DNA of 56,912 nt from a virus, in IMG/VR virus record IMGVR_UViG_3300044612_003613, positions 1 through 56,912 of that record; one strand, written 5' to 3'. The translations under genes and the position numbers were made by a program. Shown here piece by piece: positions 1 through 56,912 of the stretch. Each line of letters starts with the position of its first letter. Position 1 is the stretch's first letter. Under the pieces are notes generated by a model. It worked only from the letters and a program-made list of their open reading frames with translations. It searched no databases and was not told where the DNA came from.

Positions 1-327
1 ACTGGCGCCGAAGCTCCTGCAGAGACTTCGATGTTGCGCATAAAAAATACCTCACCTGAACCGGTGACTCTTGAGCCTACTGTCACAGAATCTACCCAGC
101 CATTATCGCCAAATAGGTTGAACTCTTCTTCTCTGTCGTCAATTTGGAAGGAAAGTTTAGTGACACCTGGCATATTGACGTAGTTCTGTCCCGTAGGCAG
201 GGTTGGCAGGGTGATCAAGCCTGCGCTATCCCTGGTTGCATATAAGCGATTGGGCAGGGTTAAGGGAACCACCCGTACCAGACTGCGGGTTGCTTTGTGG
301 ATGCTGGCGCCGATTGCAATTTCAGAC
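1..327 (-). CDS. Major tail tube protein (partial, C-terminus outside window)
   Basis: The ORF starts with ATG at 327 and is still open at position 1, so only the first 109 residues are visible. The sequence is rich in short beta-strand-like segments, with an acidic stretch IDDREEEFNLFGDNGW near residues 63-78, as is common in siphoviral tail tube subunits. It follows the tail-terminator-like gene, exactly where the tube gene lies in HK97/lambda-type late operons. Its expected role is to polymerise into the hollow tail tube around the tape measure. The family call rests mainly on gene order and general character, not on a diagnostic motif. Confidence 0.6.
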
Positions 328-355
328 ATTGTGCCTCAGTTGTGGGGTGGGGGGT

Positions 356-2523: not shown

Positions 2524-3456
2524 TCAGCCTTTATCGACGTAGGTAATCGATTTGGGGAAGAAAGCAGCAACGCCGGCAAATTTGGCTTCAGCTGGCACCT
2601 TGAAGGCCAGATTTACGGGCTGGGGCGGCAAAAACTTAAGAGCCATGGAAATCATGAATTTCACTTTTTCTTCGGAATATTTGTATAGCACCATCCGCTT
2701 GGCGCTGAGATTGCCGAACGATTTGCTTGGGTCCAACTCGTTGATTGCCATAACCCGCTTGATTTGCGGGTTACATTTCAAGAAAAAGTCAAGGACGGTC
2801 ATGGAATCGTTCGTCCCCATCTTTGTGGTAGCCACCTTGCGATGGTCGGTATAAGGCAACAACAAGGTGTCTGCGGCTTCCACCTGGTTCGACACGTTAC
2901 CTTGATATGTTATTGGTTCATTTAAGATTGCAACCATTTGGTCAGGGGTGATGTTTGCGGCATCAAACCAGCCATCGGTGGCACTGCCGGTGATCACCAG
3001 CCTGTCTACGGCTGGATGGTTAAAGAACCCTTTAAGACCGGTGCCGGCTTGTCCAAAAAGGGCAACTCGATTGGCACGCTCTTCATACGCCGATCGAGCG
3101 GCATCAGCCTTACGCTGATCCAAGCTAATATTAGCAAATTGAGCCTTCCGGATCTCTTCGGTAGTGTATCTAAAAGAAGTGCCATACTGGCGGATCTGGT
3201 TAATCACCTCACCTCGTTTAACATCTGAGGTGGGCAGATCATCACCGCTGTCGCTGATGAGATCCATCTCACCGACACGATCCCATAGATCGTAAGTATA
3301 AGTTTCCGCTCCTTCCGGAACCTCAAAGCTGACAGGCAAGATTTTGCTATAAACAATCTCGGGGTATTCTTTTTCATAGGCTCTAGCAAGTTTGTGCCGC
3401 AGTTCTTGTTGCAGAAAAGCTCCAGCTGCTGCCTGGGCGTCGTTGCGAATGGCCAT
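2524..3456 (-). CDS. Major capsid protein (DUF2184-like)
   Basis: 310 residues. The N-terminal segment with 'AYEKEYPEIVYSKILPV', then 'DLWDRVGEMDLISD' and 'TSFRYTTEEIRKAQF', and the later 'GFFNHPAVDR' are characteristic of DUF2184 major capsid proteins, which adopt the HK97 fold. It forms the icosahedral shell. It is preceded by the cement protein and the protease/scaffold gene in the order typical of this capsid lineage. Local base composition is a little more AT-rich than the neighbouring genes, which is common for highly expressed capsid genes. Confidence 0.85.
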   Translation of the reverse strand: MAIRNDAQAAAGAFLQQELRHKLARAYEKEYPEIVYSKILPVSFEVPEGAETYTYDLWDRVGEMDLISDSGDDLPTSDVKRGEVINQIRQYGTSFRYTTEEIRKAQFANISLDQRKADAARSAYEERANRVALFGQAGTGLKGFFNHPAVDRLVITGSATDGWFDAANITPDQMVAILNEPITYQGNVSNQVEAADTLLLPYTDHRKVATTKMGTNDSMTVLDFFLKCNPQIKRVMAINELDPSKSFGNLSAKRMVLYKYSEEKVKFMISMALKFLPPQPVNLAFKVPAEAKFAGVAAFFPKSITYVDKG

Positions 3457-5428: not shown

Positions 5429-5728
5429 ATGAGATACCAAACTGCGGATTTCCTTAGCCTGAATCGTGTTTTATTCCGCATCGGCATGTTTGAGGACCGC
5501 CCGTTTGTGGTCCCTCCTGCCCCGTACGTCCGGCGGGAGATGGGCGGCCGCATCCGAACCGCCCGCCACCGGCGGGGCCTCACCCAGGCCCAGCTGGCTG
5601 AATGCGCCGGTGTCGGCCAGCCCTGGATCGCCAAACTTGAGCTTGGCAGGGCCTCGGCATCCCCGGCGCAGATCAGGGTGATCTGCCAGGTGCTGCAGGT
5701 ATCGGCCGATGCCCTGCTGGCTCTTTAG
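5429..5728 (+). CDS. XRE-family helix-turn-helix regulator
   Basis: Up to 99 residues from ATG 5429; an internal ATG at 5486 would give 80. Residues about 38-95 form a full XRE/Cro helix-turn-helix: 'GGRIRTARHRRGLTQAQLAE' then 'VGQPWIAKLELGRA' then 'LQVSADALLAL'. It is a DNA-binding regulator with no extra domain. It sits on the strand opposite to the head operon, divergent from the protease gene and convergent with the small gene at 5725-5985 (4-base overlap). A lone regulator inside a late head operon is unusual and looks like a moron-type insertion. Confidence 0.8.
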   Translation: MRYQTADFLSLNRVLFRIGMFEDRPFVVPPAPYVRREMGGRIRTARHRRGLTQAQLAECAGVGQPWIAKLELGRASASPAQIRVICQVLQVSADALLAL

Positions 5729-16313: not shown

Positions 16314-16571
16314 ATGGCACTACAGCAACCAACCCGACGCCAGCACGATGTCGCCTTGGCAATCCTCAAACACCAGAATCTCCACGGGCAGTCTCCAACT
16401 CTAAAAGAGCTTGCGCAGGCTCTTGAAATTGCCACCGTGAGTAGCATTTACCAGCATTTGACTCAGCTGAAGAAAAAGGGCTGGGTGACCTGGCAACCCC
16501 ATGGTCACCGATCGCTGCGATTTACGGAACACGGTGCAGCAGAAGCTGTAATTGACCTGGGCAACTCATGA
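16314..16571 (+). CDS. LexA-type winged-helix DNA-binding protein lacking the protease domain
   Basis: 85 residues. The whole protein aligns in pattern with the LexA N-terminal domain: 'TRRQHDVALAILKHQ', 'GQSPTLKELAQALEI', 'SSIYQHLTQLKKKGWV', then an R-S-L-R-F wing strand. The C-terminal S24 autopeptidase domain of LexA is absent, so this protein cannot self-cleave in the SOS response. It probably acts as a transcription regulator and is a candidate binder of the 18-bp palindromes. It overlaps the next gene by ATGA (16568-16571). Confidence 0.75.
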   Translation: MALQQPTRRQHDVALAILKHQNLHGQSPTLKELAQALEIATVSSIYQHLTQLKKKGWVTWQPHGHRSLRFTEHGAAEAVIDLGNS

Positions 16572-17243: not shown

Positions 17244-18674
17244 TCAAACCGATCTCAAAATTGCCTCATAGGCCGCCCTGGCCTGCTGGTCCAGCCAACC
17301 TCGCCGCGGGCACCACACCGGGTCACCAGCTGGCCAATCGCGCGCGGCCTGGTTCAGAGGGTCATCTGGGCTCAAGGCTTTCCTTGCCACGCTTTGCGGC
17401 AGGCCTTTGCGCTCCATCAGGGGGTAGTCAGCAGACTTGCCCCGCATGTCCCCGGGCCCACCGACCGGACGGGGCACCGCATCGGCGCCGGCGGCCGCCC
17501 GGAAATAGGCCATGGTGGCCGCCGCATGGGCCTGGAACTCGGCCTCCCAGGTCTGATCCGGCGATTTCGCCATGCTGTTCTGGATCACCAGCGATTCCAA
17601 GGTGATCGGGCTCTCGCCGCAGCGGCAGTTCGGATGGATCGGGGTTTTCACCCCACCAATCCAGTAGATGCAGCCGGATCGGGGCGCACAGAACTCGCAG
17701 GTGCGGTCATCAAGCGTCGCCAGGTACTGCACAAAGCCAACCCGCAGCCGGCGGTAGATCCGCTCTTGGGCCTCGCCAGATGCCATCAAGGTTTCGGTGC
17801 GGGCGATCGTTTCCGCCCGGTTTTTGAAGGCCTCGTTGATGGTTGGGATCCTCTCCCGCAGCTTGGCCTTCAGCGCCCGGGGATCGGGGCCCTGGGCCAT
17901 CTGGCGCGCCGTCTCAAACGACACCGACTCCCCCCATTCAGCCCACCACTTGGCGTAGTAACTCTTTGACGCCCTGACGTGCTCATCGGAGGCCGCATCA
18001 CGCTCTTTGGCGTAGTTCTCGGACAGGCTCTTGAAATCGCGTTCCGCCGCGATCACCGCACCGCTGAGATCGAAGAGCCGGCTCAGCCGTTGCCCACCCT
18101 GGTACCCCCGATCTGGCGCCGATGGCATGTCGATCGGTGCGGGGCCCTGCTGGCCGGGCAACAGCGGCGGGCCGTCGCCCGGCCCCTGGCCCTGGCCCTG
18201 GCCTGGCAGCTGCTCGATCTGCCCCTCTGGGGAGAGCGCCGCCAGGGAGGGCTCGAGTTCTGCCCCGGTGATCTGGAGGGCATATTCGCTGCCCAGTCCC
18301 TGGGCCCGATCGAACAGGGCTTTCAGTTCGCTCTCCAGCCGCTCCATCCGTTGGGGGGAGAGCTGCATCGAGTCGATGATCTGGCGCAGATCTTGGAGCA
18401 GCTGCCCCTGCAGGATCAGCTGGGCTTGATTCTTCAAAACCGGATCGATGGATACCTGCCCCTCGGGGGTGGATCCCAAAAACGCCCCTGGGGTGGTCTT
18501 TGGGTCATAGGCGGGTTGGGCGGCGATGCCATCGAGCTGCGCAAAAATGCGTGCGACCGTTTCCCGCAGGGCCCCCTCGAAGACGCGACCGATCCGCCCG
18601 ATCGCTTCATCCTCCAGGCCCCGCAGTTCGTCGCTTAGCCGCTGCTGGAGCTCCAGCCGACGGTCAATGCTCAT
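17244..18674 (-). CDS. MuF/SPP1 gp7-type minor head (head morphogenesis) protein
   Basis: 476 residues, starting in an ATGA overlap with the portal gene. Residues about 330-355 carry the family signature C-E-F-C ... GCIYWIGG ... HPNCRC, a zinc-binding-like motif of the Mu gpF/SPP1 gp7 domain, preceded by 'ARTETLMASGEAQ'. The N-terminal region is helical (QQRLSDELRGLEDEAIGR). These proteins associate with the portal inside the head and are often ejected with DNA. The gene follows the portal in the usual order and is followed, after the inserted cassette, by the polyvalent genes. Confidence 0.85.
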   Translation of the reverse strand: MSIDRRLELQQRLSDELRGLEDEAIGRIGRVFEGALRETVARIFAQLDGIAAQPAYDPKTTPGAFLGSTPEGQVSIDPVLKNQAQLILQGQLLQDLRQIIDSMQLSPQRMERLESELKALFDRAQGLGSEYALQITGAELEPSLAALSPEGQIEQLPGQGQGQGPGDGPPLLPGQQGPAPIDMPSAPDRGYQGGQRLSRLFDLSGAVIAAERDFKSLSENYAKERDAASDEHVRASKSYYAKWWAEWGESVSFETARQMAQGPDPRALKAKLRERIPTINEAFKNRAETIARTETLMASGEAQERIYRRLRVGFVQYLATLDDRTCEFCAPRSGCIYWIGGVKTPIHPNCRCGESPITLESLVIQNSMAKSPDQTWEAEFQAHAAATMAYFRAAAGADAVPRPVGGPGDMRGKSADYPLMERKGLPQSVARKALSPDDPLNQAARDWPAGDPVWCPRRGWLDQQARAAYEAILRSV

Positions 18675-20695
18675 GGCTCATAGCTGTCGCATCGGACCCC
18701 CATCGCCAGCAAGTCCAGGCCATCGAGGCGGCGCACCCGGGCACCCGGGCCGGCGGCGGCCACCACCATGGCCTGGTCCTTCACTCCCAACACGGCGGTC
18801 CATTGACCGGCCGGGCTCAGCACCTCCCATATCCCGGTGGGGTCAGGGCCCACTGCCGCTTCCAGAGCCAGGGCCTGCCCGTAGGGTCCGACCAGGGTGG
18901 CGCTGCCATCGATGCGGACGTCAACTGGCACGCCGGCCACCACCCGCCGACCGGTCACCCGGCTGCCGTCCGCCCGTACCCCGGGGCGCCGGCCGCGGCC
19001 CTTGCGGCGCTTGCCCTGCGCGATCGCCCTGGCGATGGCCCTGGCGATGGCCTCGGCGGCCGCCGCTTGCTGGAGAGGGAAGCCCTCCATCTGCAACGAC
19101 CCCTCCAGCTGGTCATCGGCCTGCTGCTGGCCGTCGACGGCGCCGTCGTTGCAGGTGGCGGGCTTCCCCCTGGCGGTGGCGGCGTCGCAGGGGCTGCAGC
19201 AACCGTCGTCGCGTTCGTCCCCGCTGTCCCCCCGGGGGGCCTGCTGCTGGCCCTGGCCCTGGCCCTGGCCCTGGCCCTGGCCAATGGCCTCACCGGGCAG
19301 AGTGGCGAGGTCACCACCAAAGGTGGGTGGTGGCAGGTTTTGGGGATCCTGTTTGATTGCGCCATTCTTCTCGCGGTCCAGCAGGGTGGTCTCCATCGAG
19401 AACTTGGCCCCGCCAAAACGCGCCACGGCCACTTCGTTGGGCTGCAACACACCTGACTGGATGTTCTGGCTGTCGGCCGTTGCCACCTTGCCCCGTAGCT
19501 CGGCCTCTTCCAGGTCGGAAAGGGTGAAGGTGCTGTGAAAATCAATCTGCCAATCCTCTGGCAGTTTCATTGCTGCCTTGTTGGTGGAGCAAGCGGCCAG
19601 CGTTTCGTAGAACTGGCGCAACTGCCGATCAATGTGGTCTTCCTGGATCATGTGCACCTCTTGTGCAAAATCCGCCTTCTCTGAATGGCCAGTGGCCCCC
19701 AACCCCGATGGGGAGCTGCCCCAGAGCTTGGTGTGGGGGATCCGGCTTGCCCCCTGAACTTCGTCCTTGAGTTTTTCGATGATCGACTCGACCCCTGCGG
19801 CCGAACGGGTCAGAAATGAGGCCTCTTCACCATCAGCGTCGAGGGCGATGCCGCCGATCACCGAACGCATCATCGCGTTCAAAGCCAGCCGATTAGTGAT
19901 CAGGTCGCCATTGCCTCGCTCCACCATGCCTTTTAAACCCTTGACTTTCTGCACATATAGGCTGAAGTCGTTGAGGATGTTGGCGGCTGATGCTTGGCCT
20001 GTTTCGTAGCGCTTGAATACACTCCAGACGGACTGCAATACGGATACACCCCACCATCTAAAGTGACTTTTGTAACTGTAAGGAACCGAGTCTCCTTCAA
20101 AACGCAGCAGCCTGGAGCGATGGATAGGCACATGCAGTAATTGATCTTTTATGCCAATACGGCGCAAATCTTCATCTCGATTGATTTGCATTTGATAAAG
20201 CTCAGGTTCGCCTACACCGCTCCAGCCCGCTGCCGGCCAAATCCGTTGGCAATCCATGGCATGCAGCCCCTTGATGGCCCGTAGCCTCTTGAGGTTGACA
20301 GGCTCATTGATGGGAGTGTTGTCATCAAGGATCATGATTATCGCCGCGCCGCCATGAAGGCGAGACTGCTTCATGGCTTCCTTGACATGAGTGCGGATCC
20401 CCATGTCTTCGCCAGTCGCAACCAGCCGATCAAACCGCTTCTTCTCAGCATCGGTGGTTTCCGGGCCCAGGGTCAGGGCCCAGCCCGCCCTGGTGCACTC
20501 CTGCGGGATGGTGTCGACGATGCGCCGGCAGAGCCAGTTGTTTATGTATAAAGCGTCCAGGTCAGCGGGTTGCAGTATTTCCGGCGCTGCAACACCGGTG
20601 TATCGCTCCTTGTCCTGACTGGTGCCCATTTTGGTCAGGGTGTTGACCAATACCCCGTCAAACCGTTTCTCAAAAGCGATTTCGTCGGTATCCAA
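18671..20695 (-). CDS. Portal protein (DUF1073-like) with long C-terminal extension
   Basis: 674 residues with a TTG start at 20695 and AGGG upstream. Residues about 20-430 match the DUF1073 portal family ('INNWLCRRIVDTIPQE', 'LHGGAAIIMI', 'FRWWGVSVLQSVW'). The portal forms the dodecameric DNA channel at the packaging vertex. Residues about 475-490 are a Gly-Gln repeat encoded by a GGCCCT tandem repeat (19247-19284). After it come a Cys-rich patch (DDGCCSPCDAA) and about 130 residues that include a basic RRKGRGRRPG segment and a beta-rich domain not typical of portals. This is the first gene of the leftward head operon. Confidence 0.85.
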   Translation of the reverse strand: MDTDEIAFEKRFDGVLVNTLTKMGTSQDKERYTGVAAPEILQPADLDALYINNWLCRRIVDTIPQECTRAGWALTLGPETTDAEKKRFDRLVATGEDMGIRTHVKEAMKQSRLHGGAAIIMILDDNTPINEPVNLKRLRAIKGLHAMDCQRIWPAAGWSGVGEPELYQMQINRDEDLRRIGIKDQLLHVPIHRSRLLRFEGDSVPYSYKSHFRWWGVSVLQSVWSVFKRYETGQASAANILNDFSLYVQKVKGLKGMVERGNGDLITNRLALNAMMRSVIGGIALDADGEEASFLTRSAAGVESIIEKLKDEVQGASRIPHTKLWGSSPSGLGATGHSEKADFAQEVHMIQEDHIDRQLRQFYETLAACSTNKAAMKLPEDWQIDFHSTFTLSDLEEAELRGKVATADSQNIQSGVLQPNEVAVARFGGAKFSMETTLLDREKNGAIKQDPQNLPPPTFGGDLATLPGEAIGQGQGQGQGQGQQQAPRGDSGDERDDGCCSPCDAATARGKPATCNDGAVDGQQQADDQLEGSLQMEGFPLQQAAAAEAIARAIARAIAQGKRRKGRGRRPGVRADGSRVTGRRVVAGVPVDVRIDGSATLVGPYGQALALEAAVGPDPTGIWEVLSPAGQWTAVLGVKDQAMVVAAAGPGARVRRLDGLDLLAMGVRCDSYEP
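19247..19284. repeat. GGCCCT hexanucleotide tandem repeat in the portal gene
   Basis: Six or so consecutive GGCCCT units encode a Gly-Gln repeat (GQGQGQGQGQ) in the portal C-terminal extension. A shorter version of the same hexamer occurs at 18182-18205 in the MuF gene. Such repeats can change length by slippage without a frame change. Confidence 0.7.
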
Positions 20696-23311: not shown

Positions 23312-24802
23312 ATGGTTCAGATAATTGTAAAGCCACCTTCAATAGTTGATTGGTATTCACCTATCCCAATTCTGGGCACGTCTGAAAAGGCTGCCGCCCC
23401 ATGGGACACGCTTCCTCCTGCCTGGCCAGACTTCGCAGAACAGACGTTAATCGCTTCAAGTGGCAAGTACATGCCATTCGTGCCTTACTTATATCAACGT
23501 GATTTAATCAAAGTAATTCGCAGGGTGAAAAATGTTTATGTGCTGAAAAGCCGTCAGGTAGGCGCATCTGAAACGATCATTTCGTACAAGCTCTGTCAAT
23601 CCATTCGTAAAACGGCATGGACAGGTGTCGTTTTTTCGAAAACCGGCGAAGACGCCAGCGAGCTGGCCGCTCGAATCAAGGGCCAGGCCAGCAGCCTGCG
23701 GGAACGCTGCCCCAAGTTCGCAAAGGATTCAATGCGGAAGCTGGTTTTCAACGGCTTCGGCAGCCTGCATTTTCTGCCGCCCACCGAACGAGCTGCCCGG
23801 GGCATCCCCTCGGCGTCGATGTTGCTGTTCGATGAAGCGGCCTTCATTGAGAAGCTCAAGGGGATTGAGCAGGGCGCCCTGCCGACTACCAGCATGCTGG
23901 GTGACGCGGCGCGGCACGTGTGGGTTACAACCCCCAAAGGCCGATCCGGGGCGTTTTCTGATCACTGGCACGAAGATCACGGCGAAGTGGTTGTCGATCC
24001 CACGCCGATGGGGGCCAATGGCATCCCGCGGCTGCGAATCAGCCCGGACAACCAGTACGCCAAGATTTGCATTCATTACACCCAGCATCCGGTCTACAAC
24101 CAGGATCCAGAGTGGCCCGAAAAACATAGACGCGCGCTGCAGATCACCAAGGCTCAGTGGCAAAGTGAATTCGAGCTTGATTTCACCGCCAGCGACTCTG
24201 AGGTTTACTCCCACGATCTGATCGAGCTGGCCGAGTCTCGCGGTGGCTGGGAATCGCCCTATCGGCAGAACGTCTACGTGCTGGGTATTGATCCCAATGG
24301 CGGCGGCGGCGACGGCTTCTGCGGCATCGTCCTCGATGTGACCCGCAGCCCGTGGCGGGTGGTGGCCGGTTTCAACGTGAGCGGCCAAAGCCGGGACTAC
24401 GGCCTGCGGCGTTGCGCACGGCTCATTGACGAATATGCGCCGGTGCTGGTGGCAGTCGAAAACAATGGTGTTGGCGCAGCGGTTGCTGAAGCTCTTTGCT
24501 TGCTGCGCCCATCAATCGAAATCACCGAAATCCATACTGGCGGGCCCTCAAAATTGCTGATGACCGATCGGATCGTGCTGTTGTTGGAGCAGGAGGAGCT
24601 GGTCATTCCCAAGGGCCCATTCCCGGACGGTGAAGAGCGCGAGGGCCTCGGCCATCAGCTGCGGAACTTCCGCCAGGACGAAAAAGGCGGGCGCGCCGCC
24701 GCCCCAGGCCACCACGATGATGCCGTGATGGCCCTGGCCATGGCGGGCCAAGCTGGGGCCACAGCCCGGCCCATGGACACCAGCTGGATCACGATGCTTT
24801 GA
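23312..24802 (+). CDS. terL: Terminase large subunit (ATPase-nuclease)
   Basis: 496 residues. The ATPase domain has a Walker A-type KSRQVGAS (about 80-87), Walker B LLFDEAA (about 171-177) and a downstream 'VWVTTPKGRSG' coupling motif. The RNase H-fold nuclease domain has acidic residues in GIDPNGGG (about 325), AVENNG (about 381) and HHDDAV (about 468). It translocates DNA into the prohead through the portal and cuts the concatemer. The length is normal for the family. It ends in a 14-base convergent overlap with the small membrane gene. Confidence 0.93.
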   Translation: MVQIIVKPPSIVDWYSPIPILGTSEKAAAPWDTLPPAWPDFAEQTLIASSGKYMPFVPYLYQRDLIKVIRRVKNVYVLKSRQVGASETIISYKLCQSIRKTAWTGVVFSKTGEDASELAARIKGQASSLRERCPKFAKDSMRKLVFNGFGSLHFLPPTERAARGIPSASMLLFDEAAFIEKLKGIEQGALPTTSMLGDAARHVWVTTPKGRSGAFSDHWHEDHGEVVVDPTPMGANGIPRLRISPDNQYAKICIHYTQHPVYNQDPEWPEKHRRALQITKAQWQSEFELDFTASDSEVYSHDLIELAESRGGWESPYRQNVYVLGIDPNGGGGDGFCGIVLDVTRSPWRVVAGFNVSGQSRDYGLRRCARLIDEYAPVLVAVENNGVGAAVAEALCLLRPSIEITEIHTGGPSKLLMTDRIVLLLEQEELVIPKGPFPDGEEREGLGHQLRNFRQDEKGGRAAAPGHHDDAVMALAMAGQAGATARPMDTSWITML

Positions 24803-38721: not shown

Positions 38722-38899
38722 GGTCCTTAGATGCTTTGGTTGGAGGATAAATCAGATGGACTGACAACTGGTTGCGTGCCATCGCTTGAAATGTCTCGCG
38801 CCATTGAGGATCATGGGTTGAGAAACTCAAACAACGCCATTGAGAATTGACTCGCCAGCGCAATAGCAAAAAGGATGGCTTGATGGCAAGGGTCATCAT
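38696..38899 (-). CDS. 67-residue basic protein coupled to ERF
   Basis: Starts in an ATGA overlap with the ERF gene (38896-38899). It is a short, Arg/Trp-rich sequence (SFLLLRWRVNSQWRCLSFST, then 'PQWRETFQAMARNQLS'). The base composition is similar to its neighbours. Its coupling to the annealing protein suggests a recombination accessory, but this is unproven. Confidence 0.45.
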   Translation of the reverse strand: MMTLAIKPSFLLLRWRVNSQWRCLSFSTHDPQWRETFQAMARNQLSVHLIYPPTKASKDHVTKFPNS

Positions 38900-39798: not shown

Positions 39799-39837
39799 AA
39801 ATCAGTATGGTGGGCTGGACAGCCAAAGGATAGCACC

Positions 39838-39855
39838 CATCCAAGATCCTGTATG
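39838..39855. promoter_or_regulatory. Operator palindrome copy 4
   Basis: CATCCAAGATCCTGTATG is identical to copy 1, and both are flanked by a c on each side. It lies between the ERF gene start (39798, minus) and the rightward gene starting at 39859. Confidence 0.75.
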
Positions 39856-39858
39856 CCG

Positions 39859-40113
39859 ATGCCCATTGCTTTGCCCGTGACGGTTCCAGCGCTGATTTTT
39901 GCGGTTACAGGTTCGGATCTGACATGTGAGACCAGCTCGGCAGAAGCTGCCGACAAGGTTTGGCGGGCTCGCTCGCAATGGTTGTTGCTCTGGCCTGTGG
40001 ACCGGCTGGTGTTGCGCTGGCGGTGCCCGGAGAGCAATGAGCAGGTGGAGCTGGCGTACGAACGTGGGAGCAGTGGGACCGCCGCGGCCCCGTCAGCCCT
40101 GCCCCTGGGTTGA
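39859..40113 (+). CDS. Hypothetical 84-residue protein divergent from ERF
   Basis: ATG at 39859 (another ATG at 39853 lies within the operator). The N-terminus is hydrophobic (ALPVTVPALIFAVTG); the rest contains 'WRARSQWLLLWPVDRLVLRW' and an acidic end. The 3' end overlaps the convergent gene by 21 bases. It might be a membrane-associated early protein. Coding support is moderate. Confidence 0.4.
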   Translation: MPIALPVTVPALIFAVTGSDLTCETSSAEAADKVWRARSQWLLLWPVDRLVLRWRCPESNEQVELAYERGSSGTAAAPSALPLG

Positions 40114-41010
40114 TGCCTGGGATCCCTCAATTGCGGGTGCAGCGGTTGCTGAGGCATCGCTGAGCTGCGGCCGATTGCGGCTGGCCAGGCGGACCAGGGC
40201 GATGGCTACGGCGGCCTCCTCGTCGCGCACCTGATCCGCTGACCAGGCACCAAGGCCAAGGGCGACCTCGCGAATGCGGGCCAGTCGCTCAGGGTTTGAT
40301 GTGGGGTAACAGGAGAGGAACTGGCTCCAGTCGTCGATCAGATCAAGTTTGCAGGCCTGAATGCCTTCACGAATTTTCTTGGCTACGGCTGCGCTAATGG
40401 ATCGAGCTTCCTGATCGTTCACCACCGGTTCAACGATTTCCGGGGACAAGTTGCCTAGATAAACGCTGAAAAATTCTTCGGCGCCGTAGAGGCCCTGTTC
40501 GTCGGTGATCGTTACAGCGCTGTTGATATGCCGAGCTAGCACCTCTGATTTGGGTGCTGGCAGTTTGCCGGTCTGGACGGCCTCAATGTATTTGTTGAGC
40601 AGCCCGTAGCTGTCAAAAATCACCGGCGATACCTGCTTGAGCAGTTGGCGTTGCAGGTTGTTGATCTGGGAGGCAAAAATCCTGCGCACGGTGGCGACCC
40701 GTTCCCAGTCTTCTGATTCCTGATTCAGTTTGGGGATGGTGGTGTTGCTGCCAATGCCATCCCTCTTGGCGCGCCAGACGTGGCCATTGGCAACGGCGAG
40801 GTCATCCTTGTCATAAGGGCCCTGCCCCATGCCGGGGATGCCGTTCGCCTCCAGGGCGACAACGGCGGCTTCGGCCAGGTCGGCCATGGTGGCATAGCTC
40901 CAGCCCGAGCGCGCCATCCAACTGCGAGTCAACGCGGCGAAGGTCTCTTGCCCGCGCGCAAAGCGCTGCAGTTCTGGCGGGATGGCTTTGGGCAATGACC
41001 GTGTCCGCAT
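40093..41010 (-). CDS. Hypothetical 305-residue protein next to the replication gene
   Basis: ATG at 41010 (MRTRSLPKAIPPELQRF...); an upstream ATG at 41073 is possible. The protein is predominantly helical, with 'SQINNLQRQLLKQVSPVIFD' and 'SISAAVAKKIREGIQACKLD'. The C-terminal region is Ala/Ser-rich. It shows no catalytic motif. It is divergent from the replication initiator (start 41243), with a hairpin in between. Its role is unknown; a regulatory or replication-accessory function is conceivable. Confidence 0.5.
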   Translation of the reverse strand: MRTRSLPKAIPPELQRFARGQETFAALTRSWMARSGWSYATMADLAEAAVVALEANGIPGMGQGPYDKDDLAVANGHVWRAKRDGIGSNTTIPKLNQESEDWERVATVRRIFASQINNLQRQLLKQVSPVIFDSYGLLNKYIEAVQTGKLPAPKSEVLARHINSAVTITDEQGLYGAEEFFSVYLGNLSPEIVEPVVNDQEARSISAAVAKKIREGIQACKLDLIDDWSQFLSCYPTSNPERLARIREVALGLGAWSADQVRDEEAAVAIALVRLASRNRPQLSDASATAAPAIEGSQASTQGQG

Positions 41011-41114
41011 GGAGAAGGGTGGCTCTTGCATTCTGCCCGATTCCCGCCCATCAGTTGTTCGGGACGCCAGCAAGCCCCTATCCTGTTTCGTGGATGGCCT
41101 ATGTCTGCATCCAC

Positions 41115-41146
41115 AAAGAAACCCCGGGGCCGAACCGGGGTTCTTT
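41115..41146. promoter_or_regulatory. Strong hairpin upstream of the replication gene
   Basis: AAAGAaACCCCGG-(7 nt)-CCGGGGTTCTTT forms a 12-bp stem with one bulge, with an A-rich left and T-rich right arm. It therefore looks like a bidirectional terminator or attenuator. It is placed in the divergent region 97 bases before the rep start and could attenuate rep transcription or isolate the two promoters. Confidence 0.5.
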
Positions 41147-41242
41147 GCAGAACGTGTGCTTACAGCCGCTCCCCAGCGATCCGTAAGGCGTCGAGCCCAG
41201 TCAGGCCAGGCCCTCTTCCATCACATTCAACATCTGAATTCT

Positions 41243-42400
41243 ATGCCATCACAGCCAGATCAGTCAACCCTTAAGCGTACTGATTTTGTCATTGTCCCTA
41301 AGCAGTTGCTGCGGAGTTGTAAAGACAGAAAAGGCACTTTGTTTGTTTACGCCTGGCTATGGGACTATGCGGGGACCAGAGACAATGCCTTCCCAGCGGT
41401 AGAAACTCAGGCTTTCGAGTGCCGCATGAAGGAAGAGGCGGTCCGGGAAGCGCGCCGGTGGCTTGAAGCGGAGGGCTGGATCGCCCGAGAGGATCGCCCG
41501 GGCTTCACCACCAATTTTCATGTGCGGACAGAGCCGGCTGCAACAGGCAGAACCTTAATGAACACTGGGGATACCCCGAAAAGGGGATCCCCCAAAAGGG
41601 GGACTCCCCCAAAAGGGGGATCCCCCAAAAGGGGGAGTACACCCCTCCCCCTTTCGGGGGAGTACACCCCTCCCCCGAAAGGGGGAGACGAACAAGAAGT
41701 ACTTAACAAGAAGAAAGAAGAACAGCCTTTAGAACCCCCTGTATCCCCCACTGCGCTGCGCGCACCGGGGGACGAACCCGCCAGCGTGGTCGAGGTGACG
41801 GAGGTGATCAGCCTTGATCCGGTTGAACCGACCCAGCCGGATGCTCCCGGTGACCCGGCACCAGTGGCCGCGGCCACCAGTCCAAACACCGCCGAACCCG
41901 TTGACGCAGCTGCAGCGGCAAGCAAACCCAAAGCCCAACCGAAGGCCGCGGCCACCGCCAAAAGCCGTTCGGCGCAGGCCTGCCCCTTGCCGGGCGATGC
42001 CCCGGAGTTGGAGCCCGATCTGCTGGATCTGCTGGCGACCTGGTGGCAGCGCCGCTGCCGCGTCCATCCCCGGGCCGATCGGCTGCAGTTGGGAACCCGG
42101 ACCTTGAACGCGATTCGCCTGGCGGTTGAGCACGGCGTGCTGGATGGCTACCTCGAACAGGCAGCCGAAGCCGGCTGGCAGTCCCTGGGCCACGAGGGAC
42201 ACCGCCGGGTGATTGCAGGCTTGGCGGAGGCAGCGACAACAAGCGATTTTCCGCTTGCCCTCGCTCATACAGAATTCAGGATGCTACGATCTGGCAAACC
42301 GAATTTTGACCCTTCCGACCTGCGCCAGCAGAAGCGGGATGCGATGAATCGGGCGATCAACCACGAGGTACGGAGGGCCCATGACGATCAGTTCCGATGA
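41243..42400 (+). CDS. Replication initiator-like protein (winged-helix N-terminus, internal origin repeats)
   Basis: 385 residues from ATG 41243. The N-terminal roughly 100 residues are a winged-helix DNA-binding domain: 'FVIVPKQLLRSCKDRKGTLFV', 'NAFPAVETQAFECRMKEEAV', 'ARRWLEAEGWI'. Residues about 111-148 are a low-complexity region of P-K-R-G and P-P-K-G-G units encoded by a hairpin array (41574-41685). An Ala/Pro linker and a C-terminal helical domain (about 255-385) follow. The layout parallels lambda O-type proteins, whose gene contains the origin. Confidence 0.75.
   Translation: MPSQPDQSTLKRTDFVIVPKQLLRSCKDRKGTLFVYAWLWDYAGTRDNAFPAVETQAFECRMKEEAVREARRWLEAEGWIAREDRPGFTTNFHVRTEPAATGRTLMNTGDTPKRGSPKRGTPPKGGSPKRGSTPLPLSGEYTPPPKGGDEQEVLNKKKEEQPLEPPVSPTALRAPGDEPASVVEVTEVISLDPVEPTQPDAPGDPAPVAAATSPNTAEPVDAAAAASKPKAQPKAAATAKSRSAQACPLPGDAPELEPDLLDLLATWWQRRCRVHPRADRLQLGTRTLNAIRLAVEHGVLDGYLEQAAEAGWQSLGHEGHRRVIAGLAEAATTSDFPLALAHTEFRMLRSGKPNFDPSDLRQQKRDAMNRAINHEVRRAHDDQFR
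41574..41685. repeat. Six-unit GC-rich hairpin array, candidate replication origin
   Basis: Inverted repeats CCCC(C)-[AAAA/GAAAA/TTTC/GAAA]-(G)GGGG occur at 41574-41586, 41589-41602, 41606-41619, 41622-41635, 41647-41660 and 41672-41685. Starts are spaced 15-17 bases for the first four and 25 bases for the last two. The array lies inside the replication gene, as lambda iterons lie in O. Confidence 0.6.
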
Positions 42401-42887
42401 CCTGTTTGACGTGCTGGAGAGCCTTTCGTTCCTCCAGCGCTTTGCCAAGAAGCTCACTGGCGATGATCACACGTTTGCATTTTTGACCTTTCCGCAGCAG
42501 GCGCGGCAAGAGCTGAACAAGGCTCATTTGATTTTTGCGGCACAACAGCTGTTGCTGGATCCTGAGCCCGTGCCAGACATGGCTTTGCACATGGCCTTGC
42601 TTCGGTATCTCTATCCCTGCCAGGGGATTTCCCCGTGTGTGGGTCGCGGGCTGCGGAGTGATCTGCCCCAGCGGCTGGCCGCTGCGGGGACTTTCACCCC
42701 TCTGCAGCCGGTGCCTGCGGAGCACCGGGCTTTTGCCCTGCCTCCTGCCCAGGCGATCCAGCCGCCACCGAAGACCAGGGCCGAGCGCATCGAGTCCCTG
42801 TTGGCCCTGGCCGCGGCTACTGGCGTGGTCAATCCGCTTGAGCCTGCAATGGCCGCGGCCCCCGAACCCCAGCTGGCTGAGGCGTGA
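42381..42887 (+). CDS. Hypothetical replication-region protein
   Basis: 168 residues, starting 20 bases inside the end of the initiator gene. The N-terminus is helical (SSDDLFDVLESLSFLQRFAK); the middle contains a 'YPCQGISPCVGRG' segment; the C-terminus is Pro/Ala-rich. In lambda-like modules this position is that of a helicase loader, but there is no AAA+ motif, so that role is not supported by the sequence. Function unknown. Confidence 0.5.
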   Translation: MTISSDDLFDVLESLSFLQRFAKKLTGDDHTFAFLTFPQQARQELNKAHLIFAAQQLLLDPEPVPDMALHMALLRYLYPCQGISPCVGRGLRSDLPQRLAAAGTFTPLQPVPAEHRAFALPPAQAIQPPPKTRAERIESLLALAAATGVVNPLEPAMAAAPEPQLAEA

Positions 42888-44341: not shown

Positions 44342-44760
44342 CTTACGAACCCCCAGGTTTACCAGCCACCGATGACGCCGCGGCCAACGGCGAGACCGCA
44401 AACTTGCAAGCCTTTTCGGCCTGGCTGTTTCTCCAGCGCCAGGGCGCCTTGCACGGCGAGCTCACCGTGGCCCTGGCCGAGCTCACCCAGGCGGTGATGG
44501 CCACCGACAAGGCCGGCAGCCTCACCCTCACCATCAAGGTCAAAAAGGCTGGCCGCGGCATTCAGATGCTTGTCGAAGACAAGGTGGTTCTTCGCAAGCC
44601 GACGGCTGAAGTGGATCCATCGTTCTTCTTCTTCGATGAAGAATCGGGGTCACTGAGCCGCAACGATCCTTTCCAGCCTGATCTGCCGTTGCAGTCCCTG
44701 CCGGCGCGGCGCACGATCCACGAGTTGAAAGAGGCCAGTGGCGTCCAGCTCACCAACTGA
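44338..44760 (+). CDS. Hypothetical 140-residue protein
   Basis: Starts in an ATGA overlap. It has a helix (SAWLFLQRQGALHGELTVAL), a beta strand pair (SLTLTIKVKKAGRGIQMLVE) and a C-terminal part 'FFFFDEESGSLSRNDPFQPD'. Similar F-F-D-E-E-x-G-x-L-S-R-x-D-P-F proteins occur in prophage operons beside YfdQ-like genes. There is no known enzymatic function. Confidence 0.55.
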   Translation: MTYEPPGLPATDDAAANGETANLQAFSAWLFLQRQGALHGELTVALAELTQAVMATDKAGSLTLTIKVKKAGRGIQMLVEDKVVLRKPTAEVDPSFFFFDEESGSLSRNDPFQPDLPLQSLPARRTIHELKEASGVQLTN

Positions 44761-44764
44761 AGCC

Positions 44765-45064
44765 ATGGGCGATGCTGCAGCCGAGGCGATTAACAGGCGC
44801 CTCGACGAGATTGCAGCGCAGCTGGACAGGCTTTTGGCCAGTTTCCAGCTGCATGCCAGGCCGACCAGCCCCAAAAGCCTTTGGCTGCCACTGCCCGCGG
44901 CCGCCGGGGTTTTGCAGTTCTCCAGTGCCAAAGCGCTGCGTGGGGCCATTGACCGGGGAACCATCCCTCCCAAGTTCGTCAGGGATACCAATGAGGACAG
45001 CACCAAGCGGCGGCGGCTGCTGGTGGATGTGGAGGGCTATGCCTCACATCTGCGCCACAAGTGA
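44765..45064 (+). CDS. Excisionase-like DNA-binding protein (candidate recombination directionality factor)
   Basis: About 99 residues from ATG 44765 (ATG 44738 is an alternative). A coiled-coil-like N-terminus (INRRLDEIAAQLDRLLASF) is followed by a winged-helix of the MerR/excisionase kind: 'WLPLPAAAGVLQFSSAKALR', 'GAIDRGTIPPKFVRD', 'RRRLLVDVEGYASHLR'. It is convergent with, and overlaps by 21 bases, the integrase gene. Gene position and fold favour an Xis role, not shown directly. Confidence 0.6.
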   Translation: MGDAAAEAINRRLDEIAAQLDRLLASFQLHARPTSPKSLWLPLPAAAGVLQFSSAKALRGAIDRGTIPPKFVRDTNEDSTKRRRLLVDVEGYASHLRHK

Positions 45065-46150
45065 TGCCATTGAGTCATTGTCGAAATAACGCTGGTACAG
45101 CGTGGTGTGGACCATCAAGGAATGGCCCAGGCTCTTGGCTGCCAGCGATGGGCTGATCTGCGGGTTGGAGATGGCCCGCACGGCCCAGGCATGGCGAAGG
45201 TCGTACGGCTGAAACGGCACTTGGAACCGGCGAAAGGCCACCGCCAGCTGCGCCCCCACGGTTCGGCTGTCCCTTTCGAAATTGATTGCCGGCAGCCGTT
45301 GCTCATCGAGGTTCCATCGCTCGATCCAGGCCTTCGGCAGCGGCAGGCTCTTTCGAGCACCAGTTTTTCCCGCCCTGATCACCGCCAGACCATTGCGTTC
45401 GACAGAGGCCATCAGCAGGGCCTCGTGGGGGCGGGTGCCATAGGTGGCGCAGATGCCGGCGACCCACTGCCAATTGGCGGGCATTGCATCGATCGCATCG
45501 ATGATCACCTGGTCATCGGGCAAGCTGCGAGGCCGCGCCTTCGAGGGGCTGTAGCCCTTCCCGAGATCCCGCAGCTCTTGCACAGCCTCCATGCCCATTG
45601 CCAGGGCCTGCGCCACAGCCGTCGCTGCCAATGCCGCCTTGCGCCTTGCGCACCCACCAACAGGCTTGCTTGCCACCAGGGCTCGCAGAATGTTGAGCGT
45701 CACATCCTGCTGCTGCAGCAGTGGCCGCAGCGGCCCCCCGTAGGCAGTCGCCCAGCTCACCGCCGATTTCGGGCCACGCTGGCGCCGCTCATGCCACCAG
45801 ATCTCGGTTCGCCGAATCGCTTCATGCCCGCTGATGCTTTCCCGGGCAGCACAGTTGCTTGATCCGGCACCAGCCTGGGCCCAGCGGTCAAAAGGGAACG
45901 GCTGAAGGCCGCGGCGATGCAGCTCGATGTCCTGGCCCAGCTGCTCAGCCAGCTCCCGGGCTTGGTCAATCCCAGCGGGATAGGGAAAGGCGGTAACGAT
46001 CCGGCGTTGCTTCCAGGTGCCATCTGCCATTGGCAGGGTGGCCCGCAACCGCAGCCGGCCGCCTGACGGGGAAACCTCAATCGACACGCTGGCCCCAAGT
46101 GCACGGAGAGCCCGGTTGACGCGGGCGAGATACGGGTCCTTGGGTGGCAT
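45044..46150 (-). CDS. int: Tyrosine-family integrase
   Basis: 368 residues. The C-terminal catalytic domain carries R in YGTRPHEAL (about R240), the basic 'GKTGARKSLPLP' loop, H-x-x-R in 'YDLRHAWAVR' (R near 318), 'SLGHSLMVHTTLYQRYF' with the nucleophile Tyr near 352, and a short end. The N-terminal half has an arm-type/core-binding domain. Its start lies 130 bases from the tRNA-derived attachment core at 46280-46325, as expected for site-specific integration into a tRNA gene. Confidence 0.9.
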   Translation of the reverse strand: MPPKDPYLARVNRALRALGASVSIEVSPSGGRLRLRATLPMADGTWKQRRIVTAFPYPAGIDQARELAEQLGQDIELHRRGLQPFPFDRWAQAGAGSSNCAARESISGHEAIRRTEIWWHERRQRGPKSAVSWATAYGGPLRPLLQQQDVTLNILRALVASKPVGGCARRKAALAATAVAQALAMGMEAVQELRDLGKGYSPSKARPRSLPDDQVIIDAIDAMPANWQWVAGICATYGTRPHEALLMASVERNGLAVIRAGKTGARKSLPLPKAWIERWNLDEQRLPAINFERDSRTVGAQLAVAFRRFQVPFQPYDLRHAWAVRAISNPQISPSLAAKSLGHSLMVHTTLYQRYFDNDSMASLVAQM

Positions 46151-46279
46151 CGGCCGTGCCTAAAAGCGTGCCTACTTTGGCCCCTTATGGGCCTTTTCAG
46201 GCCTTTTTGTGCCTTCTGAAGGCCCGGCTGAATGGCCACAGCTGGATGAGATCCCCTGTCCTGACTATGGTTTTTGGGA

Positions 46280-46325
46280 TGGGGGTCCCGAGGATCGAAC
46301 TCGGCTAAGGCGAATTATGAGTTTG
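46280..46325 (-). other. attP: attP core carrying the 3' half of a CAU tRNA gene
   Basis: Read on the minus strand: anticodon loop CTCATAA, anticodon-stem 3' strand TTCGC, variable loop CTTAG, T-arm CCGAG-TTCGATC-CTCGG, acceptor strand GACCCCC and discriminator A. The 5' half does not pair and is not tRNA-like, so this is not a complete tRNA gene. It is what a phage integrating into the 3' end of a tRNA-Met/Ile(CAU) gene would carry. The 46151-46600 stretch has no other gene that I can see. Confidence 0.75.
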
Positions 46326-46600
46326 AGCAACAGCTAGGCCTGGCAACGGGTTTGGCCTGGCCGGTGCCTAGTTCGTGACTTGCTCGGTCCGCTTGAGCCT
46401 CAACCTCAATCAGATGGCCCATCGGGGTCTTGGTTTTCTAAATGAATGGGCTGCCGTTGCGTCCCTGGCAGGAAGATTCCCGGCTCAGTTGGGTCGGAGT
46501 CGGTAAAATGCTGTAGACCTGGCCGCCGTTAAAACCGGCGTCACCACCAGTAACGCCGCTAGGTCCGCCTTGATCCAGCCGCTAAACACAAGAGATTAAA

Positions 46601-53595: not shown

Positions 53596-55098
53596 TTAAC
53601 TTTCCAACGGAACACTTGTTGTTACTATAGTGACTGGGGCCGTCCCCACGCTTTGTTTGATCAGTCTTATATGCACAAAGCCAGCGGAGTCCCCCAGCAG
53701 CGAAGGGATCCCACTTGGGATAAGCGTTTCCAAGGCAAAAGTAGTTACACCTTCTCCATAGGGCTTTTTGTCTTGTAGATTAATCATTGTCTGAATGTTG
53801 CCGCCTGGAGATGTTCGTGGATCCGATGCTCTCTGTTCGCTAGATCTGTAGAATCTAATCCACGATGGCTCAGAGATCTGAACAGCCTTAAGCATCGAAA
53901 GCTTGCCCAGTTCCATTGCAAAATCTGCAGCTTCGTTCTGAGCCAGCGCCGCTGTTGTGTACGTGGTTTGTGCTGCATTGCTGTTAAGGCTTGCGGCTAC
54001 AGCAACTTGAACAGCAAGTGAAGTAACCACAACGTCTTGGTTTATATCAGCAACCGAGAGCAACGCTCGAAACCGAACCGATCGAGCTCGGACAATGCTG
54101 CGCGTCAAAGGCTTCCAGCCTGACCAACTGCCTGCCAGGCCGGAATTTAGGGCATCGTTTGAATCTTGATATTCCAACTGGACAATGCCGCTTTCTGCAG
54201 TTGCATTGTCAATGCTCAAAATTTCATCAACTGGGCCCAGGAATGAATCCCAAGACGTGGCAACCAATCTGGAGCGAGATCGGATTATGCGGCTCAGCTG
54301 CAAATCTTTCACAGCGCCAGCATCAAAATCATTTGCAAAGTAATAAGTTGCCCTTTTGCTGTCAAACCCGTAGTCGTCAATCGGGCCTGGCAACCCATCA
54401 AAGTTGCCATCTTGCGCCAAATCATCCCATGTATTTGTGTCTATCCTTGGTGCGCCATACTCATCAATTGGCCCTGGCAACGCATCAAAATCACCATCCA
54501 ACGCCAGGTCGTCCCAGTATTCATCGTTTAATCGAAGGGCCTGAATCGAGGCATCGAAGGCACAATTTCTTTTGACACCAGTGAATCCTGTTGCTGCTTC
54601 ATCAATGGTGGCAATTACCTCTACCGCAGATTCCGGGACATGGAATACAACTGGGGTCGTTAATGAAACAGCACCGCTGCCATTTTGGTGGCGAAATAGG
54701 TAGGTCCCCGTCAACGCCGGCAGCAGCATCTGACCTTCGGCGTTGGGAGTCTCCCCTCTGACCAGAGGGTTGCTGGTTGACCAAGTGGCGCCTGATATGT
54801 CCGGCGAATGCCGAATTGCCACGCTCAGCGAATCGTTGTCGACCTGGGCCCAGCTGGCCTGCACCACCCATTTGCCTAGCGCCACCACGGCCGCATCCAT
54901 CACCCGCTCGACGCTGCCATCAATGCCGATGACGCCGGTAGCCGATCGATCTACCTCTTGGGTGGGGGGCACAAAGGGATCGGAGCGGTTGCCAAAGGCA
55001 TCGATCGCCACCACCTGGATCTCGTATCTCCCATCGGCCACCCCTGGGAGCACGATCGATGGCGTGGAGGTTGTGTAGGTCTGCCAGTTGCTGCTCAT
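53596..55098 (-). CDS. C-terminal part of the J-like tail-tip protein (second reading frame)
   Basis: 500 residues from ATG 55098 in an ATGA overlap with the J-like gene. It begins in the middle of a fibronectin-type domain (VADGRYEIQVVAIDAFGNRS, the later strands), whose earlier strands lie at the end of the upstream gene. The remainder is beta-rich with further domains (TYLFRHQNGSGAVSLTTPVV; repeated 'ALPGPIDEYG' and 'GLPGPIDDYG' segments). It is either translated separately or fused to J by a -1 frameshift. In lambda-type phages the equivalent is one protein. Confidence 0.65.
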   Translation of the reverse strand: MSSNWQTYTTSTPSIVLPGVADGRYEIQVVAIDAFGNRSDPFVPPTQEVDRSATGVIGIDGSVERVMDAAVVALGKWVVQASWAQVDNDSLSVAIRHSPDISGATWSTSNPLVRGETPNAEGQMLLPALTGTYLFRHQNGSGAVSLTTPVVFHVPESAVEVIATIDEAATGFTGVKRNCAFDASIQALRLNDEYWDDLALDGDFDALPGPIDEYGAPRIDTNTWDDLAQDGNFDGLPGPIDDYGFDSKRATYYFANDFDAGAVKDLQLSRIIRSRSRLVATSWDSFLGPVDEILSIDNATAESGIVQLEYQDSNDALNSGLAGSWSGWKPLTRSIVRARSVRFRALLSVADINQDVVVTSLAVQVAVAASLNSNAAQTTYTTAALAQNEAADFAMELGKLSMLKAVQISEPSWIRFYRSSEQRASDPRTSPGGNIQTMINLQDKKPYGEGVTTFALETLIPSGIPSLLGDSAGFVHIRLIKQSVGTAPVTIVTTSVPLES

Positions 55099-56912
55099 AC
55101 GGTGCGCACCGCCACCTCATACTCGACTGCCCCAGGGATGGCCTCCCAGGAGAGGTGCATATCGGTTTGCCGTGTGGCTGGATTCACCACGGCGATGGCT
55201 GTTGCGCTGGAGGGTGCCGCCGGTGGCTTGATTTCAAGGGGGGCAAACACTTGCAGATCTAATGGAATATCACGCTCGATGTAGTCATATTTGGTTGGAT
55301 TATGGCGCAATGCAGAAACCATATATTTAGTCCGACTGCTTTCGGTAATGCCAATAGCCGTCCATAGGCTTGTGCGCATGGCGTTGTTGTCAATTGACCA
55401 AGTGCCACCAATCAATGGCGCTGCCGAAAATGGCAGGGCTGGTGTAACAACCACACCGCTGATAGAACCAATGAATCGTGTCTCCAGATTTCCATCCACC
55501 AGCTTGGCGGTGATCGTTGCATCTGCCTGGGTTGGCAGATCAGTCTGGGTTGCATCATCAACAGTGAGGCTGGTTGTTGTGCCTGCAATGGTTTTGCCAG
55601 CTCGCCTTACGCCGCTTTTGAGACGATCAGCTGCTCTGAACCGCAGGCCCGGCCGAAGTTCCACCCCCAGAGCCACGGTGCCCTCAAACATCACAACTTC
55701 TGATTCGTATTGTTCGGTGTAAAGCAGCCATTCCCCTGCGCGATGGGCTTGCCCAGGTGATGTGCAGGCAAAAGCGTCGATATTGGCGACCGTTGCCCCA
55801 TATAACTGAATTGCCTTTTTATCTTGTACCGTTACAAAATCATAGTCTTGTTTCTCGTTGTTGAAATACCGCACAACGGCGACGGTATGGCGCTCCCGCA
55901 GGCTAGAGCCGACATAGCGAAAGCCTTCTGGCGATATGTCTGCATTTGATACGGTGACGATTGCATCGCCAGGGGCATCTTGCGTAACAGTTACCGAGCC
56001 TTTGCCCCAATGGGGCATGCCTCGAAAGACACTGGCCATCTGATTGATCATTTTGTATGCGTCTTCGCTGCTCTGGATGTTGATTGAACAGGCAAAACGC
56101 GGCTCAAAACCGCCCCTGCCATCAGACACAAGTTCTGCGCAGTATTTAGATATCGAATACAGAGCAAACTTATCGACGGTTTCAGGCGGGCAGCGATGGC
56201 CGAATCCATAGCGTGGATGGGTGACCTGGTCGAAAAAATGCCAGGCAGGATCGGTCGTCCATTGAGCTTCGGCAAAGTTGCCCGTCCAAATGCCGGAGTA
56301 AATCAACCGGCCGGTGGTTTGCTCGACGGTTGCATTGTCAGGAATCGGAATTTTGACACCTAACCGGTCTACGGATACTTGCGGCCAGGAACTGAAATAC
56401 TTGGCGTCAAGTTGCAACGCCAACAACGCTGAATATGGGTATCTAAGCTTTGCATAGATTAATTCTGTATAGTCACTCCAAACCATTGTGTCATTGACTT
56501 TGGAGTTGTTTGAATCTGGGGTGATTCGCACCATTCGCACGCTTACGGGGAAGGGGCCATAGATCTCGACTTCATGGCTGCGTTGAAACAGATCGCCAGA
56601 ACGGCCTTTCACAGATGTGTCAACCACGGTTTTGAAACTGCCACCGGCGGTTGCCACTTGGATCTGATATTTGACCTCCACCGCAATGACATCGCCCTCC
56701 TGCGGTGACTTGACGCCACCTTTCAAGATGCTGGAAGTCAGCGATTTTGATACCTTATTCTTGGGATCGTAATACTGCTGTAGGGCTTGCCAGCTAAGTG
56801 TGATTCTGAGTGCATTGACAGCAGAATCTGTAATCGTGCGTGTCAGCGGCGTCGCTGCTGTTACCGGCAGCCCAACCCCTCGCTGGGATTCGGTTGCATT
56901 GAAACCTTTGAT
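55095..56912 (-). CDS. Lambda J-like tail-tip host-specificity protein (N-terminus outside window)
   Basis: The frame is open to 56912, so the N-terminus is missing; the first internal ATG is at 56726. It matches lambda J: 'EGDVIAVEVKYQIQVATAGG', 'VVDTSVKGRSGDLFQRSHEV', 'NDTMVWSDYTELIYAKLRYP', 'TDPAWHFFDQVTHPRYGFGH', 'KFALYSISKYCAELV' and 'MASVFRGMPHWGKGSV'. J forms the tail tip that contacts the receptor. The last part starts a fibronectin-type domain (MHLSWEAIPGAVEYEVAVRT), continued in 53596-55098. It marks the distal end of the leftward tail genes. Confidence 0.88.
   Translation of the reverse strand: MKGFNATESQRGVGLPVTAATPLTRTITDSAVNALRITLSWQALQQYYDPKNKVSKSLTSSILKGGVKSPQEGDVIAVEVKYQIQVATAGGSFKTVVDTSVKGRSGDLFQRSHEVEIYGPFPVSVRMVRITPDSNNSKVNDTMVWSDYTELIYAKLRYPYSALLALQLDAKYFSSWPQVSVDRLGVKIPIPDNATVEQTTGRLIYSGIWTGNFAEAQWTTDPAWHFFDQVTHPRYGFGHRCPPETVDKFALYSISKYCAELVSDGRGGFEPRFACSINIQSSEDAYKMINQMASVFRGMPHWGKGSVTVTQDAPGDAIVTVSNADISPEGFRYVGSSLRERHTVAVVRYFNNEKQDYDFVTVQDKKAIQLYGATVANIDAFACTSPGQAHRAGEWLLYTEQYESEVVMFEGTVALGVELRPGLRFRAADRLKSGVRRAGKTIAGTTTSLTVDDATQTDLPTQADATITAKLVDGNLETRFIGSISGVVVTPALPFSAAPLIGGTWSIDNNAMRTSLWTAIGITESSRTKYMVSALRHNPTKYDYIERDIPLDLQVFAPLEIKPPAAPSSATAIAVVNPATRQTDMHLSWEAIPGAVEYEVAVRTV

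Follow-up and report, generated by a model that had tools for sequence, protein, structure and literature searches.

Intact prophages are reported to be absent from marine Synechococcus and Prochlorococcus, and attempts to isolate lysogens to have failed (PMC8776855). P-SS2, a siphovirus of Prochlorococcus (GQ334450), encodes a tyrosine integrase and carries beside its gene a putative attP of 53 bp that includes a portion of a CAU tRNA; the attB suggested for it, a non-coding copy, lies in a host island, and the phage has not been observed in integrated form (PMC2784084). The T7-like phages P-SSP7 and S-TIP37 possess an integrase and an attP with the same sequence as a segment of the host tRNA-Leu gene, and their integration, detected by PCR, is transient, with no lysogens found (PMC8776855). 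For S-LBS1, a siphovirus of freshwater Synechococcus (34.6 kb) that also encodes an integrase, 14-bp motifs within genes were put forward as att sites, and integration was not detected (PMC6157547). In heterobivalent systems of the lambda type, the core is flanked on either side by repeated arm sites, and the integrase has an excisionase-like partner.

Here we analyze a locus in a stretch of viral DNA of 56,912 nucleotides (hereafter the window). This locus is very probably the attP of a temperate tailed phage with a genome of ~69 kb, whose hosts are freshwater picocyanobacteria of the Synechococcus/Cyanobium type. Like P-SS2, the window belongs to a tailed cyanophage with a tyrosine integrase and an attP, located beside the integrase gene, that includes a part of a CAU tRNA. 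However, the 36-bp tRNA match of P-SS2 corresponds to an initiator-type tRNA and not to the tRNA gene of the window, which rules out that the two sites are the same. P-SS2 is the only phage in the searched collection matched by the integrase of the window (26% identity over 43% of the query), and the two enzymes are just distantly related. Like P-SSP7 and S-TIP37, the phage of the window combines an integrase with an attP that repeats a stretch of a host tRNA gene exactly, but those phages use tRNA-Leu, whereas the group of the window includes assembled integrated genomes with both host flanks. With S-LBS1 it shares the freshwater habitat, the Synechococcus host and the presence of an integrase, but the genome of S-LBS1 is half the size and has no tRNA att site, and S-LBS1 was not among the matches of the window integrase. 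The lambda-type anatomy recurs here, with the differences that the excisionase candidate is convergent with the integrase gene, that Tyr replaces His in the HxxR box of the integrase, and that the arm sites are predicted.

The mechanism is already well known and ordinary; the hosts are the interesting part. What is new is the full set of att sites for one freshwater picocyanobacterial phage group, together with predicted arm sites and a candidate excisionase, and a cassette common to a phage and a BREX island. Earlier attP proposals (P-SS2, S-LBS1) were made without an observed integrated form, whereas here attP, attL and attR are available together with a nearly identical empty site. Intact integrated viruses are rarely seen in picocyanobacteria, and the relative described below sits exactly at the tRNA gene. 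The exact 46-bp target, the predicted arm sites and the candidate excisionase make lysogeny in freshwater picocyanobacteria testable by junction PCR, and the system may provide an integration vector for these hosts.

The attP core and its tRNA gene

The core occupies positions 46278-46323 (minus strand, 46 bp, AACTCATAATTCGCCTTAGCCGAGTTCGATCCTCGGGACCCCCATC) and is the same as the attB of an integrated relative, G001 (IMGVR_UViG_3300027763_000065, 60,785 bp). Both of its edges follow from the comparison of the two host sides of G001 with the window, which leaves an identical stretch of precisely 46 bp. The search for cyanobacterial tRNA genes with the same ending, proposed in the preliminary description, revealed that 46280-46323 (minus strand, AACTCATAATTCGCCTTAGCCGAGTTCGATCCTCGGGACCCCCA) matches a tRNA(CAU) gene of the Synechococcus/Cyanobium type at 44 out of 44 bases, and a perfect match of this length to a conserved gene goes well past what coincidence would produce. 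On its 5' side this segment comprises two 5' anticodon-stem bases, the anticodon loop (CTCATAA) and the 3' anticodon stem, and on its 3' side the variable loop, the T arm, the 3' acceptor strand and the discriminator A, which is the complement of window base 46280. The preliminary description had assigned 46280-46325 to the region from the anticodon loop to the discriminator; the left end is retained, but the right end has to be moved, because the identity to the tRNA stops at 46323, after which the window sequence, CTCAAA, departs from the GCGAA of the tRNA.

A 34-base kernel of the core occurs once in the window's own record, in 12 stretches among viral contigs and in 19 stretches in the prokaryote genome collection. 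Each of the latter lies within a complete tRNA gene of the Synechococcus/Cyanobium type; 18 carry cyanobacterial titles, and the remaining one is a mislabelled contig of a metagenome-assembled genome (MAG). This contig (L004, CALPNT020000134.1), titled Bifidobacterium breve MAG, has the picocyanobacterial tRNA(CAU) and an integrase 72% identical to that of the window, and its title evidently reflects a binning or naming error that concerns a stray contig.

The 5' half of the gene was described as unrelated, and indeed ARAGORN reports no complete tRNA in the window, the tRNA 5' half is absent from the whole record, and the Rfam scan of the window at gathering thresholds returned nothing. A matching 5' half close by in the full contig, suggested earlier as the proof of an integrated prophage boundary, was thus searched for and is absent, and a prophage boundary within the window is ruled out for this reason.

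ARAGORN labels every CAU tRNA as Met, and the preliminary description left the choice between tRNA-Met and tRNA-Ile. The three host genomes examined contain three CAU tRNAs each, i.e. the initiator, one with the TTCATAA loop (elongator) and the target tRNA. All three encode TilS above the cut-off, and no tRNA-like pattern match with UAU was found in them, therefore one of the CAU tRNAs must read AUA. No TilS was found in a fourth genome (G011), perhaps because that genome is incomplete. The AA-CTCATAA-TT segment of the target presumably resembles plastid trnI-CAU. The elimination among these genes suggests that the target is probably tRNA-Ile2(CAU) rather than tRNA-Met. One viral contig (L030, positions 5305-5379) carries tRNA-Lys, tRNA-Gly and a tRNA(CAU) that has the D, anticodon and T arms of the host gene and a different acceptor stem.

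Integrase, arm-type repeats and candidate excisionase

The tyrosine integrase (368 aa, 45044..46150, minus strand) begins 130 bp beyond the tRNA-like segment. It matches phrog_1 (E-value 7.6e-8) and, in the profile search, the solved structure of a XerC-like protein (4a8e, E-value 3.3e-4), and scores under the cut-off of the Pfam integrase family. Residues R240, K262, R319, H343 and Y352 are invariant across 12 aligned integrases, all of which have Tyr in place of His in the HxxR box (Y316-x-x-R319). Hence the catalytic set R-K-HxxR-H-Y is present with the sole exception of the His of HxxR, replaced by Tyr316. The structural model of the integrase is poor (pLDDT 51), and the fold search with the full model gave no useful match. 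Residues 1–90, where a lambda-type integrase would have its arm-binding domain, are modelled as α-β-β-β-α (pLDDT ~65–86), also with no useful match in the PDB.

The heptamer TAGGCAC occurs 7 times in the window, 3 of them within 360 bp around the core, where 0.04 would be expected at the window's own rate. One copy lies in the left (P) arm (46364..46370, minus strand), at the same distance from the core as in five attP-bearing relatives and in the attR of G001, while two copies 12 bp apart lie in the integrase-side (P') arm (46168..46174 and 46156..46162, minus strand), whose array is kept beside integrases down to 63% identity. All three exact copies are found at the same distances in the five other attP relatives. 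The P' arm contains also a degenerate repeat, AAGGCAC (46209..46215, minus strand), and related islands have a full TAGGCAC pair at the matching place. In Cyanobiaceae chromosomes with related integrases (62–72%) a four-copy TAGGCAC array of conserved spacing follows tRNA(CAU) and tRNA-Leu(UAA), with one copy changed to TAGGCAT at one such locus, and beside tRNA-Arg(CCU), where the integrase is 49% identical, the variant TAGGCAA appears.

The repeats are absent downstream of tRNA copies with no element, which rules out that they are a constant feature behind this tRNA. Among the tRNA copies compared, arm repeats are present downstream only in L004 (with an integrase), L017 (with a 36-aa integrase remnant) and L013 (no integrase found), the last two being likely scars of past elements. 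Thus the repeats stand on both sides of the core, as in the lambda-type heterobivalent systems, and are element-specific and conserved. Arm-type sites of an integrase would be arranged in just this way, and we predict that the TAGGCAC array is bound by the integrase.

A small ORF (108 aa, 44738..45064, plus strand) is convergent with the integrase gene, whose 3' end it overlaps by 21 bp. The model of its product has a winged helix (β-α-α-β-β-α) in the C-terminal half, and the top fold match in the PDB is a DNA-binding protein of phage P2 (4lhf; Foldseek probability 0.96, with an E-value of 0.3 that is weak), which we take to be Cox, the P2 excisionase. Pfam and PHROGs gave no informative match, and the sequence search of the PDB returned just designed coiled coils that match the N-terminal helix. 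Among related elements whose integrase is ~47% identical or more, most have a homolog of this ORF next to the integrase gene; the homolog lies farther from it in G076 and G155, is reduced to a divergent stretch in two attP-bearing viral contigs (L021 and L022) and was not found in L026. Judging from the modelled fold and this position, the Cox-like protein is a likely candidate for the excisionase (recombination directionality factor).

Integrated and circular forms

The preliminary description called for a search for integrated relatives at the tRNA, and G001 proved to be inserted exactly there. It carries the 34-base kernel twice: at its right end (attL) the kernel lies inside a complete tRNA followed by the integrase-side arm of the window, and at its left end (attR) the other arm of the window is followed by the bare core and then by host DNA. 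The DNA between them is collinear with the window (about 90–96% identity in aligned blocks), and the host flanks agree with L020, a cyanobacterial MAG from Lake Pavin, at 94.2–97.8% upstream of the tRNA and 95.9% downstream. Two further contigs contain the same attR junction as G001 (L031) and an attL (L026), and six other viral contigs contain the attP junction (L021, L022, L024, L027, L029 and L032). The integrated form is thus known from the relative G001 and not from the window's own strain. The two phage arms that lie 60.2 kb apart in G001 meet at one core in the window, which therefore corresponds to attP, as had been claimed, and the comparison of sequences confirms a site of the kind used by tRNA-targeting tyrosine integrases. 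The tRNA at attL is complete, therefore integration keeps the tRNA gene complete.

Several junctions at the same tRNA differ from this arrangement. L020 contains two complete copies of the target tRNA ~2 kb apart (positions 3605-5660), with toxin-antitoxin-like ORFs between and beside them; the doubling was possibly left by earlier integrations. In L038 (IMGVR_UViG_3300032242_004041, 15,148 bp) the attL with the tRNA and the integrase is followed by a DnaB-like fragment within ~2 kb and then by the tail module; this layout looks like a deletion of the head and replication genes and would fit either a defective prophage or a chimeric assembly. IMGVR_UViG_3300034062_008862 (L025/L037) has, at an attR-like junction, an element that is otherwise unrelated; this element brings its own two TAGGCA repeats, and the adjoining host flank resembles that of G001.

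Another relative, G002 (IMGVR_UViG_3300046007_014300, 69,291 bp), has the gene order of the window, opens at window position ~29.1–29.7 kb and is a collinear circular permutation of it. Its first and last 102 bases agree at 101 positions, with the very last base alone differing, and this 101-bp terminal repeat implies a unique circle of 69,189 bp, while the IMG/VR class of the record is linear. Compared to G002, the window is devoid of a stretch of ~12.4 kb (30188-42613 of G002), which encodes a tape-measure-like protein and minor tail proteins. Since this part is missing and the window ends show no terminal overlap, the window cannot be a complete circle and is an incomplete fragment of the genome. 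The claim of structural genes at both window ends agrees with what was found: the gene of a J-like tail tip protein (phrog_31; 55095..56912, minus strand) is cut in its 5' part by the window edge and continues in the relative, and an ORF with no family match (3..329, minus strand), cut at base 3, runs into the tail module in the relative. The different break points, the one circular order and the presence of attP in both the window and G002 support the circular or circularly permuted, non-integrated source molecule that was proposed from the window alone.

The window encodes the large terminase subunit (23312..24802, plus strand), the portal protein (18671..20695, minus strand) and the major head protein (2524..3456, minus strand); with the tail genes and the integration module this is the gene set of a temperate tailed phage, the missing tail genes being present in the relative. 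These head, packaging and tail proteins rule out a genomic island or a tycheposon-like element that lacks the full set of virion genes. A Cro/CI-type HTH protein (5429..5728, plus strand) and a protein with a LexA-type DNA-binding domain (16314..16571, plus strand) are possible regulators, the former of lysogeny, and their domain types suggest that the phage repressor may be among them.

Taken together, these features suggest the following mechanism. The phage carries a copy of the host tRNA(CAU) gene from the anticodon loop to the discriminator, and the integrase encoded 130 bp away would bind the TAGGCAC arm sites on both sides of it. Strand exchange would take place inside the 46 bp common to both sites, with the region of the anticodon loop as the likeliest place, so that the phage copy of the 3' half joins the host 5' half at attL and the displaced host 3' half remains as attR. 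For excision, the small Cox-like protein would set the direction. The window would then represent the extrachromosomal form, either circular or circularly permuted and packaged, minus the ~12.4 kb with tail genes.

The most serious challenge to stable lysogeny comes from cyanophages such as S-TIP37, i.e. our phage might be essentially lytic and integrate just transiently. T7-like marine cyanophages do integrate at tRNA-Leu by means of an integrase and attP but do not become stable lysogens (PMC8776855), unicellular cyanobacteria are described as seldom lysogenic (PMC6157547), and an integrated contig in a metagenome could represent transient integration. Yet integrated forms with host flanks were assembled in at least three metagenome contigs, an excisionase-like gene accompanies the integrase, and DNA-binding proteins of the Cro/CI and LexA types are encoded by the phage, while in the T7-like phages no repressor homologs were found (PMC8776855); we therefore regard this scenario as unlikely. 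The junction itself could be read in another way. In lambdoid polylysogens tandem integration produces an arm-core-arm junction of just this kind and makes the assembly graph circular, and the junction in the window might be the inner border of tandem prophages with no free molecule. As none of the seven contigs with attP (the window and six others) has host flank in addition to it, and G001 reveals a single-copy integration, such an origin is very improbable. Hardly credible at all is that the tRNA piece is a relic of recombination that no longer serves as an attachment site: old scars do exist at tRNA(CAU), such as the integrase remnant in L017, but the core is preserved letter for letter in the seven attP contigs, the integrase is intact, and the expected junctions occur in relatives. 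A functional attP of a temperate phage is thus the interpretation we favor.

Distribution of the integration cassette

The survey of the integrase family in 400 Cyanobiaceae genomes revealed close relatives (63–73% by the scoring of the search) ~97–135 bp from tRNA(CAU), a group at 66–67% located 86–134 bp from tRNA-Leu(UAA), a group at 51% beside tRNA-Arg(CCU), and single integrases beside tRNA-Ser(UGA) (49%) and tRNA-Leu (43%). The same cassette, with the integrase 48–73% identical, is found at tRNA-Leu, -Arg and -Ser besides tRNA(CAU). On the tree of 27 integrases the target labels require 7 changes compared to 13.3 in shuffles, a clustering that near-copies inflate.

The cassette is present also in an island of 58.5 kb at the same tRNA (G194:C1, ~324703-383250; L085–L087), bounded by the direct repeat of the tRNA 3' part. 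Its integrase is about 71% identical to that of the window and its excisionase candidate 55%, and the arm array is retained. The island contains BrxA, BrxB, two PglX proteins, PglZ and BrxL, which make up a BREX set. Thus, as a tRNA-associated tyrosine-recombinase island, it shares with the window the cassette, the tRNA and a direct repeat 58.5 kb away, but it has BREX genes and no match to the TerL, portal, head or J proteins of the window, which belongs to a tailed phage. The cassette on a BREX island ties phage integration and anti-phage defence to one tRNA gene. With somewhat better than even confidence, we propose that the integrase, the convergent Cox-like excisionase and the TAGGCA arm array circulate in picocyanobacteria as one unit, which would switch between tRNA(CAU), -Leu, -Arg and -Ser while keeping its arm sites, and would move temperate phages and BREX islands into the same tRNA gene, so that a phage and an anti-phage island compete for one site.

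Another locus of the survey, G155, encodes DUF2303, ERF and DUF4055 proteins, which suggests a distinct prophage. More distant homologs of the integrase (about 30–37% identity) are present in 377 of the 400 Cyanobiaceae genomes, often in a single copy and, in the few cases checked, with no tRNA adjoining; they look like a resident, perhaps domesticated recombinase.
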